Source of the DNA: Prolixibacteraceae bacterium
GTDB taxonomy: Bacteria > Bacteroidota > Bacteroidia > Bacteroidales > Prolixibacteraceae
Direction: 5' to 3'
Assembly: GCA_030602265.1 (NCBI GenBank)
Contig: JAUWAB010000004.1
Location: 1-64,000 of the forward strand
Length of the DNA stretch: 64,000 nucleotides
The number at the start of each line of letters is the position of its first letter. The stretch's first letter is position 1. The translations under genes and the position numbers were made by a program. Below, piece by piece: positions 30,839-36,133 of the stretch. Below the pieces are notes generated by a model. It did no database searches. It saw only the letters and a program-made list of their open reading frames with translations, and was not told where the DNA came from.

Positions 30839-30997
30839 TCAGTCTTCTCTGGTGTCGTATATGTCAATCTCTTTACTCTTCAGTTTATCAGTAGTATTCC
30901 CACCGCGGATGTTCAGCATCTCATGAATATTGAGTACTTCGAAATTGTTTGTGAAATTGCGGTTGTTTTTCGGGTTGTTGTTACTGATAGTTTTCAT
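30839..30997 (-). CDS. 52-aa double-glycine-leader-like small peptide
   Basis: A 52-codon frame reads ATG to TGA on the minus strand. The first ~21 residues are Asn-rich. The block LNIHEMLNIRGG at residues 22-33 matches the L-x-x-x-E-M-x-x-I-x-GG pattern of double-glycine leader peptides of natural-product precursors in Bacteroidota. A 19-residue charged tail (NTTDKLKSKEIDIYDTRED) follows. There are no Cys or other obvious modification sites in the tail and no Sec signal. It has its own predicted promoter, matching that of the ECF sigma operon, and its own terminator. It is divergent from the CHAT protease. The function is unknown; a precursor or signal peptide processed at GG is my inference. 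No C39 peptidase or ABC exporter is encoded in the window. Confidence 0.75.
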   Translation of the reverse strand: MKTISNNNPKNNRNFTNNFEVLNIHEMLNIRGGNTTDKLKSKEIDIYDTRED

Positions 30998-31047
30998 TTC
31001 TTATGGATATTAAATTAAACTTTTATACTTTCACTCTCTGTTATAAT

Positions 31048-31074
31048 ATTCCGAAAACAGCGAAAAGGTAACCC
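31048..31074 (-). promoter_or_regulatory. Putative ECF-type promoter of the GG-peptide gene
   Basis: On the minus strand: GGGTTACCTTTT, 8 nt, TCGGAAT, with an A-rich run upstream. The same 19 fixed bases with the same spacing occur upstream of the ECF sigma gene at 36107-36133. The start codon of the 52-aa peptide is about 50 bp downstream. The layout fits a -35/-10 pair for an ECF factor. Confidence 0.65.
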
Positions 31075-31130
31075 GGAAAAATGAAGTTTTTTTCAAAAAA
31101 ATTAAAAAAAAATTACAAATTCCTGATACA

Positions 31131-34013
31131 ATGACAGTTAGATGTCCAGTTTTTTTTCTTGTTTTTCCCCTTTTTTTGCTGGTAACCCTTCGTTCTGCCG
31201 GAAATGTTACCCCTGCCGGATCAGACAGCCTGAAAGCGGTGGAGCTATTCAGGCAGGCTATGGAGTATGCCCAGAATATGGAACCAGAAAAGGCGCTGGA
31301 TTTTTTCAGACAAAGCCTGGAGTTCAGGAAGAATACTTTCGGCGAAAAACATTACCGGCTGGGATCTACTTATATGGCCATGGCCATTCAGTACAAAAAC
31401 ATGTATCAGCTTGAAAATGCCTATTCGTATTACAGGATAGCAGAGCAGATGTACCTGCATAACGCTTCTCCAGATGATTACCGGCTGGGAAGTGTATACA
31501 GCAACATAGGAAATTACTACCGTATCAAAGGAAATTATGCCGAAGCTGTCCGTTACCAGCAAAGAGCACTCGAAATCTACGAAAAAGCAGGCGATAATGC
31601 CAGTCTGCAAAATTATAAGGGAATCTTATACAACCTCGCGGAATCCTATCACCTGTCCAACCGGGAGGATGAAGCCCTCAGGCTGCTGACTGCCAATTAC
31701 CAGCAGGTTACCTTCGACATGAAGAACCAATATCTGAATCTGATGGCAGGAATTTACTACTCCCTGAACCAGTTGGACAAGGCGGAATCGATCATGAAAG
31801 AACTTATCCGTTCCATTAAAAAGGAGTATGGAGAGTCGGACTATGACCTGGCAGACCAGTATACCATTTACGGCCAGTTCCTGATACGGACCGGCAAGGC
31901 CGATTCGGGGCTGGTATGGCTTGGATTGGCGGAAAAAATTTATCTGAATTATGAAAACATTGAGAGAGACCTCGGCGAATTATACGAAGCAATGGCCTTG
32001 GCATGGAGTGAAAAGAGCATCCATTCCTCCTCTATCAGCGACTTCGGACAGGTAAAGTCAGGCAATCTCCACAAGGCAGCGGAGTATTACCTGAAAGCAT
32101 TGGATGTATTGAACGATTCACCTGACCTGACCCATCCAGATATACAACAGCTCGAAAAGTCCAATTTCCCGGTCCATAACCTGCGTATCCTCCACGCATT
32201 GGGACAAACCTGGCACCAGGTCGCCCATTTGCACCGGAAAGCCGACAACAGCAGGACTAATGAGTTTACCGGCAAGGCCTTGCAGATTTATCAGACCGCA
32301 AGTGAACTGGCGATACAGATCAGGACCAGTTTTATCTCCCAGGAAAGCAAAATACTTTTCGCTGAACTCCAGCAGACCATTTTTGCCTCCTCTGTAGCTG
32401 CTGCGCATGAGCTTTATGAATCCACCGGCAAGGCGGAATATGTAGAACTGGCATTCATTAATGCATCCAGGGCTAAGGCCGCAAGTCTGTTCGACAACCT
32501 GTCAGACATGCAGGCCAGGAAGATGAGCCTTATTCCGGACTCACTCGTAGTGCTCGAGAATGACCTGAATGCGAAGATTGCCTATTACCGGGAGAGGCTG
32601 TTTGATGAATCCCACTCCCGGAATCCGGATCAGCAAAAGCTGGAGGAGTTTAAAAATGCCATTTTCCTTAATGAGCAAAACCGAAATAACCTCAGGTCAT
32701 ACCTTGAAAGCCATTTCAGGGAATATTATCAGTTAAAATACACCAGGACACAGATGTCCATCAGGGAGGTCCAGCAGCAGTTAGACAGGAATGAAGCACT
32801 GGTTGAGTATGTGCTGACCACCGGAGGGAAGGGTACTGACGACGGAAGTATCTATGTGTTCACATTTTCCAGAAATCATTTCCAGCTCAGAAAGGAATTG
32901 CTTACTGACCAATTCAGGGAGAATCTGGTCACCATTCGCAGGAACCTGGCTTCAACAGCCTTTCTGAATTCGGGATTGCATGAATTCAGGGATTACTGTA
33001 AAGCCGCAAGCCAGCTTTACAACATCCTGATCAAACCTTCGGAGAAGATTATCGCCGACAAGAGGATAACCATTGTACCCGACGGGATGCTGAACTATCT
33101 TCCCTTCGAGGCACTGCTCACCCATATGCCAGAGACAGGCAGTATCCGTTACCACGATCTCCCATACCTGATTCACGCCCATCCGGTGAACTATGCTTTT
33201 TCCTCGGAACTCTATGTGCGGAATTCCTACAAACCATCCGTCAGGCGAAAATCAGCCATCGCGTTTGCTCCAGACTATTCCACTGCAGATTATGGCGCTG
33301 AGCAGGCTCAGTCCCTCGCTTCCATTCCCGGAACCCTGGAGGAAGTGGAATACCTGTCCCGGAAAATCAGGGCCAGGTCGTATACCGGTCCGATGGCCAC
33401 AGAGGCCCGGTTCAGGGAACAAGCGGGTGACTATGACATCCTTCACCTGGCCATGCATACCCTCATAAACGATTCGTTGCCCCTGTTTTCGAGACTCGCC
33501 TTTCATCCGGGTATCCCGGACGACTTGCATGACGATGGCTGGCTGAATACCTCCGATATATACAACCTCAGGCTGAAGGCAAGAATGACTGTACTTAGTG
33601 CATGTAACACCGGACAGGGAACATTGCACCGGGGCGAAGGAGTCATCAGTCTGGCCAGGGCATTCTTCTATGCCGGATGTCCGTCGGTGGTAATGACGCT
33701 CTGGGATGTAGAAGACCGCTCAGGAACGGCGATCATTAAAGAGTTCTATCGTAACCTTAAATCAGGCAAACCCAAGGATGTAGCCCTTCGGGATGCCAAA
33801 CTCAGCTATCTTGCCGCTGCTGATCCGCTGATGAGCCATCCCCACTTCTGGCTGGGATATATTTCGATCGGACAGTCAGAACCGCTCTATTCGGGAAATG
33901 TGGTCTATTTCTTCATCACGCTGTTTGTGATCATAATTCTGGTGGCAGCCGATCTTTTGAAAAAAAGAATGGCCCGCAGATCGCAGGCCATCAGGGGAAA
34001 GACATTCTCATAA
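31131..34013 (+). CDS. Periplasmic TPR-CHAT protease with C-terminal membrane anchor
   Basis: This 960-aa protein has a signal peptide (FFLVFPLFLLVTLRSAG). Tetratricopeptide repeats follow, about residues 35-330 (AEAVRYQQRALEIYEKAG and similar), then a helical linker. The C-terminal CHAT domain (about 610-920) carries His776 in LHLAMHT and Cys825 in LSACNTGQG, the expected catalytic dyad of this caspase/separase-like clan. One membrane helix (YFFITLFVIIILVAADLL) and a basic tail (KKRMARRSQ) follow. The predicted topology puts TPR and protease in the periplasm. It is divergent from the GG-peptide gene (133 bp apart) and convergent, 21 bp away, with the TPR/ECF sigma operon. The substrate is unknown. 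Confidence 0.9.
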   Translation: MTVRCPVFFLVFPLFLLVTLRSAGNVTPAGSDSLKAVELFRQAMEYAQNMEPEKALDFFRQSLEFRKNTFGEKHYRLGSTYMAMAIQYKNMYQLENAYSYYRIAEQMYLHNASPDDYRLGSVYSNIGNYYRIKGNYAEAVRYQQRALEIYEKAGDNASLQNYKGILYNLAESYHLSNREDEALRLLTANYQQVTFDMKNQYLNLMAGIYYSLNQLDKAESIMKELIRSIKKEYGESDYDLADQYTIYGQFLIRTGKADSGLVWLGLAEKIYLNYENIERDLGELYEAMALAWSEKSIHSSSISDFGQVKSGNLHKAAEYYLKALDVLNDSPDLTHPDIQQLEKSNFPVHNLRILHALGQTWHQVAHLHRKADNSRTNEFTGKALQIYQTASELAIQIRTSFISQESKILFAELQQTIFASSVAAAHELYESTGKAEYVELAFINASRAKAASLFDNLSDMQARKMSLIPDSLVVLENDLNAKIAYYRERLFDESHSRNPDQQKLEEFKNAIFLNEQNRNNLRSYLESHFREYYQLKYTRTQMSIREVQQQLDRNEALVEYVLTTGGKGTDDGSIYVFTFSRNHFQLRKELLTDQFRENLVTIRRNLASTAFLNSGLHEFRDYCKAASQLYNILIKPSEKIIADKRITIVPDGMLNYLPFEALLTHMPETGSIRYHDLPYLIHAHPVNYAFSSELYVRNSYKPSVRRKSAIAFAPDYSTADYGAEQAQSLASIPGTLEEVEYLSRKIRARSYTGPMATEARFREQAGDYDILHLAMHTLINDSLPLFSRLAFHPGIPDDLHDDGWLNTSDIYNLRLKARMTVLSACNTGQGTLHRGEGVISLARAFFYAGCPSVVMTLWDVEDRSGTAIIKEFYRNLKSGKPKDVALRDAKLSYLAAADPLMSHPHFWLGYISIGQSEPLYSGNVVYFFITLFVIIILVAADLLKKRMARRSQAIRGKTFS

Positions 34014-34034
34014 GTGTGTGTTCATCCGCATGAT

Positions 34035-35516
34035 TTATTTTAGTTTCTTCAGCAGCACAGAAGCTTTTCTTTCATAAAAACCCCTTCGTGTTACGATAGC
34101 TTCCATTACCCCGGAAGCTTTTTCAAGATCTCCCAGCTGAACGAGGCACAGTCCCATATACCACTCGGCCTGCTCCACAAAGATATTGTCGTTATGCTGG
34201 ATGACCTGATGATAATCGCCGATAGCGCTTTTATAGTCATTCAGGCTTTGATGGGATGCCCCGGAATAAAACCTTGCCACCGGATTGTCCCCTTCGAGTT
34301 CAAGGACTGTACGGAAAGTAGTAAGGGCCCCGTCGAAATCGGCGTTATTGTATTGCTCAAAACCGGTCTCCAGCCGGGAACTGATATCCGGAACCGCAGA
34401 CCTGAATGTGGTTATGGCAGATGGCGTTTCATTAGCCAGGTCCGCCATGCTTCGATCGGGTAAAGCCATATACCTGACGGTAATGGAAAGTCCCAGGACC
34501 GCAAACATTACCGCGGCAACCGTTCTTAATCCCTTATGCCTGGTCCGGACCGGTACTATCGATTTTTCCTCGGTAACCTTAATGTCTTTCGAAAGAATCG
34601 TAAGTTTCTCCCTCAGGCTGAGAACATCCTGTTCGGTGAATGCCTCGTCGAGCTCGCGGATCAGGTTAATTTCAGCTAAAAGATCAGCATTCTCAGCCAA
34701 TTCACTTTCGACCTGATATCTCAATTCGGCTGAAGACTCCTCACAAATGAATGCCTCCAGGTCTTCGAGCGGGAACGGCGTGGATGTCTCCCTGGAAGCA
34801 ATGCTCCTGAGCGATTGCCTGAGGTCCATGACATCGCGCTCGCCTATCGCGTGCTCCAGGCCGGTAAGCAGATCAACTTCACCTGCAAGCATCGGGTTTA
34901 CCCCCATCTCCTCTTCAAACTCCTTCATCTGGTCAAAAGTAAGTCCGCCCTCCAGATAGGCTTCGATATCACTAAGCGGATAAGTGTTGGCGAACTGGTT
35001 TTTACTGATCTGAAGGAGATTAGCCCTCAGGTCCATCACATCCTTTTCCATGAGGGCAGATTCAATATCGTCCCATTCGCTGTCAGGAGCCTCTGCTTCA
35101 GCAGATTCAAACATTTTCATCTCTGCCAGGTATATCTGGTGAAGAACTTCCCTGGTCTGAAGCTGATGATTGCTCAGGTGAATTTTGGGGAGTGTCTCAA
35201 AATCTTCCGTAGGGGCGGGATCAGGGGAAACCTGTTCGGGAAAGCCTGTCAGATCTGAATTCTCCGCAAGGTCAAAGCTGGCAGTAATTTTATTCTGCTC
35301 AGGGAGGTTACTACTGCCCAAATCCTGCAATGTGGTTCTGAGCTGCCGGATATCATGCTCTGTAATGGCGTCTTCGAGCTCGCGGGTTAAGATCAGGTCT
35401 GACTTTATGCGGGGGTCTTCCTGAAGTAATTTTTCAAATTCAATTTTCTGGCCGTTGGTTAAACTACCCTCAATATATGCCTCAAGCATATGGTCCTTTT
35501 TTGCATCACGTATCAT
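34035..35516 (-). CDS. Membrane protein with repeated anti-sigma-like modules and periplasmic TPRs
   Basis: This 493-aa protein has no signal peptide and one membrane helix near residues 329-350. The cytoplasmic part holds three full copies and one half copy of a helical module (about 10-68, 140-172, 182-242, 250-310). Full modules read like IEAYLEGGLTFDQMKEFE...L...L, and all four end in a D-x-x-x-LR-x-x-L pattern. The periplasmic part has TPRs (NNADFDGALTTFRTVLELEGDNPVARF, YKSAIGDYHQVI). Its start overlaps the sigma gene's end by 11 bp. Position, coupling and topology suggest a membrane anti-sigma or sensor for that factor. This is inference; the modules lack the Cys/His of zinc anti-sigma domains. 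Confidence 0.8.
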   Translation of the reverse strand: MIRDAKKDHMLEAYIEGSLTNGQKIEFEKLLQEDPRIKSDLILTRELEDAITEHDIRQLRTTLQDLGSSNLPEQNKITASFDLAENSDLTGFPEQVSPDPAPTEDFETLPKIHLSNHQLQTREVLHQIYLAEMKMFESAEAEAPDSEWDDIESALMEKDVMDLRANLLQISKNQFANTYPLSDIEAYLEGGLTFDQMKEFEEEMGVNPMLAGEVDLLTGLEHAIGERDVMDLRQSLRSIASRETSTPFPLEDLEAFICEESSAELRYQVESELAENADLLAEINLIRELDEAFTEQDVLSLREKLTILSKDIKVTEEKSIVPVRTRHKGLRTVAAVMFAVLGLSITVRYMALPDRSMADLANETPSAITTFRSAVPDISSRLETGFEQYNNADFDGALTTFRTVLELEGDNPVARFYSGASHQSLNDYKSAIGDYHQVIQHNDNIFVEQAEWYMGLCLVQLGDLEKASGVMEAIVTRRGFYERKASVLLKKLK

Positions 35517-36093
35517 CTTCCACTATTTTTTTGTATTCATTATCCTGCCTGATACGTTCTATCAGAAGTTCTTTACATTTGAATTTCCTGGTTTTCACAT
35601 ATTTCTCACTCTTTAGTCCCATAATCAGGGCAATTTGTCTGATCGGGACCTTATCAAAAAACAACTGTAGTATTTTTTGACAATCGGTACTGATATTCCT
35701 GAAATGTTTCTGGTAGAGCAGGTATCTTTCATTCTTGTCTACGACGGCAACCAGATCGTCGTCGTAAATATCTTCCTGGAACGGTAGTGAATCAGATAAC
35801 TTCTCCTGCTCTATTCTCCTTTTCTCAAGCTGCTTCAACCAAAGAAACCGGCAAACCGAAAACAGATAAACTTCGAAAGAACGATTCTCGAACAGAAGGT
35901 CATTTTCCTTCAGCTTACGGTAAATCACAATAATTGCTTCCTGAAAAATGTCACTGACATCATCCTCACCACCCTGGTTCTTTCTTACAAAGGCATTCAC
36001 CTTATAGAAATACTGTTTATAGATATAAGACAGAACGACATTGTCGTGACGAAGGATTCCCTTCAGGATTTGTTCATCCGTAAAACTTTTCAT
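35506..36093 (-). CDS. ECF sigma factor (sigma-70 family)
   Basis: This 195-aa protein has region 2 (LSYIYKQYFYKVNAFVRKNQGG...DVSDIFQEAIIVIYRKL) and region 4 with a helix-turn-helix (FDKVPIRQIALIMGLKSEKYVKTRKFKCKELL), the standard ECF layout. The linker between them (residues ~100-130) is unusually acidic. Its gene is the first of a two-gene operon with the TPR membrane protein. A GGGTTACC-type element directly upstream matches the one before the 52-aa peptide gene, so it probably controls itself and that peptide. The predicted transcript start would leave a very short leader. Confidence 0.93.
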   Translation of the reverse strand: MKSFTDEQILKGILRHDNVVLSYIYKQYFYKVNAFVRKNQGGEDDVSDIFQEAIIVIYRKLKENDLLFENRSFEVYLFSVCRFLWLKQLEKRRIEQEKLSDSLPFQEDIYDDDLVAVVDKNERYLLYQKHFRNISTDCQKILQLFFDKVPIRQIALIMGLKSEKYVKTRKFKCKELLIERIRQDNEYKKIVEDDT

Positions 36094-36106
36094 GTTCTAT
36101 ATATTA

Positions 36107-36133
36107 ATTCCGATTTTTGGCAAAAGGTAACCC
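36107..36133 (-). promoter_or_regulatory. Putative autoregulated ECF promoter of the sigma operon
   Basis: On the minus strand: GGGTTACCTTTT, 8 nt, TCGGAAT, ending 13 bp before the sigma ATG, with a long A-run upstream. All 19 fixed bases and the spacing equal the element before the GG-peptide gene; the 8-nt spacers differ (GCCAAAAA versus CGCTGTTT). Confidence 0.65.

Follow-up and report, generated by a model that had tools for sequence, protein, structure and literature searches.

How might a 52-aa peptide with a double-glycine (GG) leader, a CHAT protease, a modular membrane protein, and an ECF-type sigma factor, packed together in one Prolixibacteraceae genome, work as a system? The preliminary description of this locus, which lies in a 64,000-nucleotide window (the whole stretch of DNA analysed), treated the four genes as one module, with a cut or sensed peptide as the input and the ECF factor as the output. 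All four genes are present (Table 1), and the grouping is kept in related genomes. It is well supported that the peptide, protease, anti-sigma protein, and sigma factor make up a single conserved circuit, under its own control, in a family of Bacteroidota; that the circuit senses the peptide is what we infer.

Table 1. Features of the locus, with positions in the window
Feature	Position	Strand	Basis or remark
52-aa GG-leader peptide precursor gene	30839..30997	-	Conserved at the same place; pS > pN against genus relatives
Leader, residues 1-33, ending in VLNIHEMLNIRGG	30899..30997	-	Double-glycine leader recognised by eye
Predicted mature tail NTTDKLKSKEIDIYDTRED, residues 34-52	30842..30898	-	Strong purifying selection on tails of tandem copies elsewhere
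ECF promoter box of peptide gene, GGTTACCTTTT-N8-TCGGAAT	31048..31073	-	Zero-mismatch site; conserved in relatives
TPR-CHAT protease gene	31131..34013	+	Signal peptide, predicted periplasmic TPRs, CHAT domain, C-terminal membrane anchor, His776/Cys825
CHAT protease domain, residues 625-915	33003..33875	+	PF12770, 1e-56
Membrane anti-sigma-like (modular) protein gene	34035..35516	-	Repeated cytoplasmic three-helix modules, membrane helix, periplasmic TPR
Anti-sigma-like module, residues 179-243	34788..34982	-	Module folded alone, pLDDT 89.9; RslA is 7 of 8 Foldseek matches
Second anti-sigma-like module, residues 248-313, adjoining the membrane helix	34578..34775	-	Aligned with the first module
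ECF-type sigma factor gene	35506..36093	-	11-base overlap with the anti-sigma gene
ECF promoter box of sigma gene, GGTTACCTTTT-N8-TCGGAAT	36107..36132	-	Starts 39 bases before the ATG; zero-mismatch site

Protease, anti-sigma-like protein, and sigma factor

The CHAT protein matched PF12770 with 193 bits (cut-off 24). The dyad described earlier as intact, His776 and Cys825, was kept in all 53 aligned CHAT proteins (the window's and 52 relatives). By hydropathy calculation, most of these 53, some of whose frames begin or end early, have an N-terminus resembling a signal peptide and a membrane helix at the C-terminus, in agreement with the periplasmic location first proposed. The protein is thus predicted to be a membrane-anchored, periplasmic TPR-CHAT cysteine protease. 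Its catalytic domain is more conserved than its TPRs (mean distances 0.46 vs 0.72). PADLOC gave the CHAT protein only a weak, generic TPR match, so nothing in its result points to a listed defence system. An Rfam search of 25-42 kb returned no match reaching the gathering thresholds.

In the modular protein, hydropathy placed one membrane helix near residues 331-347, ahead of the TPRs. The zinc-finger family PF13490 (zf-HC2) was found in 7 of 15 family members, with a best E of 6e-4, below the Pfam cut-off. A fold search with the whole protein was swamped by TPR proteins, which made up nearly all of the 50 matches listed, and one module was therefore folded alone. Foldseek then retrieved only eight PDB chains at E<=10, seven of them M. 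tuberculosis RslA bound to sigma-L (E 1.3-4.1), and comparison with the RslA structure (VIA) gave Z 5.7 and rmsd 5.7 with 61 aligned. The anatomy of cytoplasmic repeats and periplasmic TPRs stands as originally described, and the protein is now read as most likely a multi-module membrane anti-sigma factor with periplasmic TPR. It is a likelier CHAT substrate than the peptide.

The sigma factor is divergent, scoring 41.4 bits with TIGR02937, just below the cut-off of 42.9, and 17.9 with Sigma70_r2 (PF04542; cut-off 24). A phylum-wide search yielded matches at E<=1e-40 in 4 of 395 genomes, the window's own included. The factor may already fall in an existing ECF group number.

The peptide, its promoter box, and its probable exporter

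Peptides of 30-60 aa are easily overlooked by gene callers. Homologues of this one occur at the equivalent position in many genera, and pS exceeded pN in all six pairs formed by the window peptide and three genus relatives (0.71 vs 0.26 between the window and L062; 0.61 vs 0.44 in the weakest pair, L063 and L065), so the reading frame is more than chance. Among the 48 testable named loci (those whose CHAT gene is near-complete and has sufficient DNA upstream of it), 46 had a GG peptide upstream of CHAT behind the same promoter box, and in the remaining two a peptide was visible on inspection. The claim of a genuine, easily missed peptide is borne out, as are the two expectations attached to it, conservation beside the CHAT and sigma genes of relatives and purifying selection. 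The peptide is thus a member of a family that evolves fast but keeps its place strictly. The double-glycine leader model TIGR01847 gave 11.1 bits for the window peptide, below its cut-off of 15.7, and exceeded the cut-off in three of nine relatives. Assignment to the rSAM-modified RiPP precursors of TIGR04149 was rejected (best score among nine peptides 21.5 bits vs 25); at E<=1, no TIGR04149 match to the window peptide was listed.

The tails after the GG, mostly 10-20 residues long and charged, range from acidic to hydrophobic. They are almost the same among tandem copies of one genome and different between genomes: in four Draconibacterium-type genomes, tails differed by 0.043 within and 0.143 between genomes, and leaders by 0.487 within and 0.386 between. 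For tandem copies, dN/dS was 0.07 in the tails (31 pairs) vs 0.27 over the final 15 residues of the leader (34 pairs), and between genomes tail dN was 0.228 vs 0.053 for the same leader residues; these pairs are non-independent, those of unequal length were skipped, and 5 of 76 peptide reading frames were left out, three resembling chance frames and two (L254, L257) genuine. In L094 and L105, the tail is repeated within a single precursor. The purifying selection on tandem-copy tails points to the tail as the active part of the peptide.

Only two sites in the whole genome (4.41 Mb) match the box GGTTACCTTTT-N8-TCGGAAT perfectly, one ahead of the peptide gene and one ahead of the sigma gene. 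A genome of the same genus (G002) has exactly two sites of a looser pattern, both in its own locus. Across 48 genomes the box pattern had 162 sites and its reversed form 14; seven of these genomes had no CHAT match, and six of the seven had no box site (two sites in G024). Of the 44 testable loci in which the sigma and anti-sigma genes adjoin, 43 have the box ahead of the sigma gene, 37-47 nt from where the sigma match begins. In 35 of 80 named loci, a set that overlaps a second one and is not additive with it, no anti-sigma gene follows the sigma gene, and none of the 35 has a box within 70 nt. One group of genera carries the box before a peptide and anti-sigma operon, with the sigma gene apart, and in several genera further genes also follow a box. 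The sigma factor is predicted to be autoregulated through its own box, probably a private promoter type, with the peptide gene as a predicted target. This layout fits the sigma factor as the module's output, as first suggested; the peptide would be more than an input, since its gene is a predicted target and so lies inside the regulatory loop.

The circuit occurs in named species, including members of Draconibacterium, Maribellus, Mariniphaga, Prolixibacter, and Marinifilum. Within the stretch covered, L277 and L279 hold the sigma gene, anti-sigma gene, and box without CHAT or peptide, and L244, L248, L261, and L266 hold the sigma gene alone. Of the three other genomes matched in the phylum-wide sigma search, L289 has the box before a gene for a 207-aa secreted-looking protein together with CHAT; in L290 it precedes the sigma gene, and in L288 only another gene. 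A GG-pattern search found no peptide in these three loci, so the peptide was either a later addition or lost there.

The preliminary description saw no export signal in the peptide and called for an exporter elsewhere. Genes for the sigma factor, anti-sigma factor, CHAT, GG peptide, a C39/ABC protein, and HlyD are contiguous in this order in L305, L306, L308, and L309, and equally in L326 from another family; the linkage is thus seen in another genus and another family than the window's. The exporters of the four loci form a clade (support 100/100) with those of 20 other family genomes, including G000:C83 of the window's genome, at 54-60% identity; six other C39 exporters stand at 27-31%. In 19 of the 20 other genomes, this exporter is the only C39 gene found. 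The window genome's orthologue has C39 and ABC domains and an HlyD neighbour, and is encoded away from the locus. Of 90 family genomes, 63 had CHAT and the exporter, one CHAT only, nine the exporter only, and 17 neither (p 5e-11), and the association of generic C39 with the anti-sigma gene was weaker (54/3 vs 23/10, p 0.003); both tests ignore kinship and count incomplete assemblies as absences. With a linked exporter in five loci and an orthologue here, the missing-signal problem is gone: the GG leader itself is likely the export signal. Export by a C39-peptidase ABC transporter with HlyD is well supported by linkage and orthology, and the exporter is a better candidate than CHAT for making the predicted cut after GG.

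Proposed circuit and alternatives

We give about an even chance to an autoregulated, peptide-responsive sigma-factor circuit in which the exported peptide acts through CHAT and loss of the anti-sigma factor to release the ECF factor. The ECF factor would transcribe the sigma and anti-sigma operon and the peptide gene from its private promoter type. The C39 ABC transporter and HlyD, tied to the peptide by linkage and orthology, would cut the precursor after GG and export it. The released tail, mostly 10-20 residues, may then be recognised in the periplasm by the TPRs of CHAT, acting as a sensor. Tail and CHAT-TPR divergence covaried (partial r 0.38, 0/500 permutations, n=34), with r falling to 0.13 (31/500) without four hydrophobic-tail loci; in one subset of 22 it was 0.16 (30/500), equalled by the anti-sigma modules (0.18), and in the other 12 loci 0.43 but unspecific. 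Because this signal leans on four loci and covers 34 of 81 (those with all four sequences), we keep it as a hint. Judging from the anatomy and from Csx29-Csx30 and RseA, active CHAT would be the first to cut the anti-sigma protein, on its periplasmic side. The cytoplasmic modules of that protein would hold the sigma factor until then, and general intramembrane proteases would complete the destruction. Free sigma factor would raise peptide, sigma, and anti-sigma together, giving a self-limiting auto-induction.

A stronger form of this reading, to which we lean only tentatively and with slightly under an even chance, is a new class of Gram-negative pheromone system, in which the genome-specific tail of the exported GG peptide would be the ligand of the periplasmic TPR-CHAT protease. 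CHAT would respond by cutting the membrane anti-sigma factor, and the ECF factor thus set free would induce itself. Strain-specific pherotypes would then arise from tandem copies and from a divergence of tail matched by that of the receptor.

The peptide could conversely be an output, with the sigma factor answering an envelope stress, or another stress, sensed by the TPRs and the peptide acting on other cells or on the envelope as a bacteriocin-like or protective product. Bacteriocins typically have GG leaders and C39 exporters (PMC10352776), the peptide gene is the only other perfect box target in the genome and so could encode an effector, and in 16 of 30 loci examined from other genera the box also precedes the gene for a conserved protein of 73-80 aa. 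Yet the tails are mostly 10-20 charged residues, inspection of the loci by eye recognised neither an immunity gene nor a modification enzyme, the near-identity of tandem tails per genome and their difference between genomes are as expected of a ligand, and the nearly constant company of CHAT and exporter would be needless for a pure stress sensor; we rate this reading at roughly one chance in four. Negative feedback, in which the tail, once exported, would block CHAT or shield the anti-sigma TPR and so end a response begun by another stimulus, is rather improbable. In several genera the peptide and anti-sigma genes share a single box, and L077, L082, and L085 carry duplicates of the pair; this is the layout of a brake, but auto-induction with a built-in brake fits equally.

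We consider it very unlikely that the peptide stays inside, to be cut or sensed by a cytoplasmic factor, with the GG motif meaning something else. The exporter does not adjoin the peptide in the other family genomes examined; against this stand the five loci in two families where it does, the co-occurrence of exporter and CHAT, and the TIGR01847 scores above cut-off in relatives. Equally slight is the chance that CHAT itself cuts the peptide and that this controlled cut is the signal, as originally put forward. The two genes lie head to head in nearly all loci showing both, but the linked C39 exporter already explains the GG cut, and varied tails beside a conserved catalytic domain would fit TPR binding better than a single cleavage site.

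Relation to known systems

An open-access literature search found no description of the peptide/CHAT/anti-sigma/sigma combination. The nearest precedent in the accessible literature is the Csx29/Csx30/CASP-sigma system of type III-E CRISPR, in which a TPR-CHAT protease cuts a sigma inhibitor and CASP-sigma has binding motifs inside its own locus, leading its authors to propose positive autoregulation (PMC10028731). A TPR-CHAT protease, a sigma inhibitor, and a sigma factor with own-locus motifs are common to both, as far as that text describes them. In CASP, Cas7-11 and target RNA act as the switch for Csx29 (PMC10028731), whereas here the GG peptide and exporter replace the RNA-guided part; unlike in CASP as described there, CHAT is predicted to be periplasmic and membrane-anchored, and the anti-sigma factor is a membrane protein. 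The CASP feature seen in the window is a TPR-CHAT protease gene near an ECF-type sigma gene, the sigma score being just below cut-off.

RseA/DegS/RseP is a case of regulated intramembrane proteolysis of anti-sigma factors. Here, in contrast, a CHAT cysteine protease paired with its own peptide would take the site-1 role, and the anti-sigma factor has several modules and TPR. The receivers known for GG peptides are histidine kinases and cytoplasmic Rgg/RRNPP proteins, whereas here the receiver would be a CHAT protease with an anti-sigma factor, in a Gram-negative phylum. From the accessible text of PMC10028731, RseA/DegS/RseP shares with the locus a membrane anti-sigma factor, a periplasmic first protease, and an ECF factor. 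GG-leader peptides with PCAT exporters (bacteriocins and pheromones; e.g. PMC7018657, in its accessible part) share the GG leader, C39 exporter, short tails, and tandem copies. Caspase/ECF/TPR neighbourhoods carry EACC2/TRADD-N parts, and no GG peptide or exporter appears in the accessible account of them (PMC8195603). The Dma dual membrane-spanning anti-sigma factors of Bacteroides are likewise membrane anti-sigma factors in Bacteroidota, with neither CHAT protease nor peptide in the accessible part of that source (PMC13088901).

If the proposed circuit is true, these Bacteroidota would have a new means of sensing a peptide that they make themselves. Signalling by peptides is familiar from Gram-positives, and to our knowledge it has hardly any described counterpart in Bacteroidota. 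The prokaryotic caspase-like CHAT proteins would gain a non-immune job as peptide receptors acting on an anti-sigma factor, and the Csx29-Csx30-sigma logic would exist outside CRISPR loci, in a compact circuit of named species in which every step is open to direct test.

Gene content and conservation of the locus

The GG peptide, TPR-CHAT protease, modular membrane protein, and ECF sigma factor of the preliminary description were all present as stated there. In the window's genome (4.41 Mb, 168 contigs; nearest named relatives in the sigma-factor scan, Prolixibacteraceae and Bacteroidales), the peptide and CHAT genes lie head to head, and the overlapping genes for the modular protein and the sigma factor are directed towards CHAT. 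Relatives were examined as 60 stretches around matches to the modular protein, and as 80 named loci from a single scan with a sigma-factor alignment (the best 80 of 212 relatives). Of these 80, 65 contained CHAT and 60 the anti-sigma gene; several of the others lay at contig ends. At L244, L248, L261, and L266 the sigma gene stood alone, and L277 and L279 carried the sigma and anti-sigma genes with a putative promoter word (the box), with no CHAT or peptide within the stretch examined.

Using the 52-aa peptide as a query against 149 related genomes, we obtained strong matches in four genomes of the same genus and weak matches elsewhere, many at the anti-sigma locus; the 54 of 149 genomes reached at E ≤ 1 include the window's own and are partly noise. 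Forty-eight of the 80 loci, having a near-full CHAT gene and >400 nt beyond its start, were testable for the peptide, and a GG peptide behind the box in 46 of them bore out the peptide as a real, conserved gene. Of the two exceptions, L256 shows the peptide in what is apparently the same stretch (L112), without a matched box, and at L268 the contig stops within the peptide (L197).

The catalytic dyad was retained in all 53 aligned CHAT proteins, most of which have a signal-peptide-like start and a C-terminal membrane helix. The cytoplasmic part of the modular protein consists of repeated modules of ~65 aa. The zinc anti-sigma domain zf-HC2 matched 7 of 15 family members (best 6e-4, under the curated cut-off). 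Folding one module together with 41 further rows gave a confident three-helix model (pLDDT 89.9), for which Foldseek listed eight of 350,542 PDB chains at E ≤ 10. Seven were RslA, an anti-sigma factor of M. tuberculosis, in complex with sigma-L (E 1.3–4.1, each weak alone), and comparison of the module with RslA (VIA) gave a Z of 5.7 and an rmsd of 5.7 over 61 residues. Because of these domain and fold matches and the overlap with the sigma gene, the modular protein is best read as an anti-sigma factor. Distal to its membrane helix, the TPR region resembles TPR proteins in fold, and the structures of several of these include a bound peptide; by predicted topology, this region and CHAT would both be periplasmic. 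A conserved motif, LPKxHxxxH..ExxHxxY, with nearly invariant His and Glu, separates modules.

Box, peptide, and anti-sigma gene are duplicated in tandem at L077, L082, and L085, with identical peptides and equal match scores for the two copies. In a distant family (L289, L290), sigma, short anti-sigma/TPR, CHAT, and box occur with a 207-aa secreted-looking protein adjoining CHAT; the GG peptide was not found in these two stretches.

Coordinates of features in the window and in related genomes
Feature	Genome or stretch	Position	Strand
GG peptide, 52 aa	window	30839-30997	-
CHAT protease	window	31131-34013	+
Anti-sigma-like protein	window	34035-35516	-
Motif between modules (anti-sigma residues about 109-130)	window	35127-35192	
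ECF sigma factor	window	35506-36093	-
C39-ABC exporter	G000:C83		
73-80-aa family with box	L330-L341, L345, L346, L348, L350	e.g. G023:C75:21710-21928	
Additional box, genus g8	L087	6197	
Additional box, genus g8	L092	9815	
Additional box, genus g8	L097	6074	
Additional box, genus g8	L108	6398	

The putative promoter box and its candidate targets

By eye, a common word precedes the peptide and sigma genes on the same strand. The window's genome holds exactly two perfect copies and no further one anywhere; the next best site has two mismatches. Of the 44 testable loci in relatives with neighbouring sigma and anti-sigma genes, 43 carry the box ahead of the sigma gene, beginning 37–47 nt upstream. 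The other 35 loci had no box within 70 nt before the sigma gene; where one was seen, it preceded the peptide, a peptide and anti-sigma operon, or the anti-sigma gene. In 48 chosen genomes, a looser pattern gave 162 sites versus 14 for its reversed form; among the seven of these genomes without a CHAT match, six had no site. The distribution of the box makes it very probable that, in the window's genome, the sigma factor drives transcription of both its own gene and the peptide gene.

A further sigma-factor target in other genera is likely a family of 73-80-aa cysteine-bearing proteins (motif YYGLIFNCP..KH..C; no Pfam match for two members). In genera g2, g12, g18, g20, and g21, the box lies 55–91 nt upstream of where the similarity begins. 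This arrangement was seen at 16 of the 30 loci retrieved, each of them ranking among the 21 best matches. Matches were listed for 29 of the 149 genomes, and the window's genome was not one of the 29. In two genomes of genus g6 (L182, L291), the box lies 0.6–0.7 kb before an HlyD-C39 operon of a different exporter clade, near which other GG-type ORFs occur. The additional box of genus g8 is directed away from the sigma gene and, at L087, L092, and L097 (ORFs listed), reads antisense into an argS-like gene from its 3' end; no target gene was identified for it.

A probable dedicated exporter

The preliminary description held that an exporter elsewhere is needed unless the peptide and CHAT act separately. 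A C39-ABC exporter stands beside the peptide in L305, L306, L308, L309, and L326, with an orthologue in the window's genome. In the first four, from genus g15, the genes for sigma, anti-sigma, CHAT, GG peptide, exporter, and HlyD follow one another in this order; the fifth g15 stretch, L307, ends after CHAT. L326, from another family, has the same six genes; L329 has sigma, anti-sigma, exporter, and HlyD, L327 has anti-sigma, a kinase-like gene, exporter, and HlyD, and in L328 8.7 kb separate anti-sigma and exporter (the L326–L329 genomes were chosen because an exporter lies near a CHAT or anti-sigma match). In L327 and L328, from two other families, the gene adjoining anti-sigma is histidine-kinase-like by eye.

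The g15 exporter forms a single clade with those of 20 further family genomes (54–60% identity), including the window genome's exporter, which has an HlyD partner and lies close to an rpsL-like gene. The tree also includes six more C39 exporters, at 27–31% identity. In 19 of the 20 genomes the clade member is the sole C39 gene found; three C39 genes occur in the window's genome. In 80 of 90 family genomes, CHAT and exporter were either both present (63) or both absent (17), with one having CHAT only and nine the exporter only, as raw counts that ignore kinship and completeness.

Tail evolution and the proposed circuit

Peptides occur in tandem, three in each of four Draconibacterium-type loci and two to five in four Marinifilum loci. 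Within one genome, the tails (residues following GG) differ little or not at all, often through different codons, and the leaders diverge (dN/dS 0.07 for tails versus 0.27 for leaders). Across the four Draconibacterium-type genomes, the mean difference was 0.043 within versus 0.143 between genomes for tails, and 0.487 versus 0.386 for leaders. In L094 and L105 the tail is repeated inside the precursor. Most tails carry acidic residues (..KSRDKDIFDFEEE); those of some clades are hydrophobic (YGIPVPIIITE). Tail distance tracks CHAT TPR distance beyond sigma distance (partial r 0.38, 0 of 500 permutations), dropping to 0.13 (31 of 500) without four loci; it does not track the CHAT catalytic domain (-0.01) and does not clearly track the anti-sigma TPR (0.10, 49 of 500).

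In the CASP system of type III-E CRISPR, a TPR-CHAT protease cleaves the protein that inhibits a sigma factor (PMC10028731). The comparison rests on the TPR-CHAT protease and the putative sigma-factor inhibitor, and we do not assign this circuit to CASP. We consider it highly probable that the locus encodes an ECF circuit that regulates itself and includes an exported peptide. The gene anatomy, tail evolution, and CASP precedent further suggest, at about even odds for the full chain, that the peptide would be the ligand and that CHAT would act on the anti-sigma factor as its site-1 protease.
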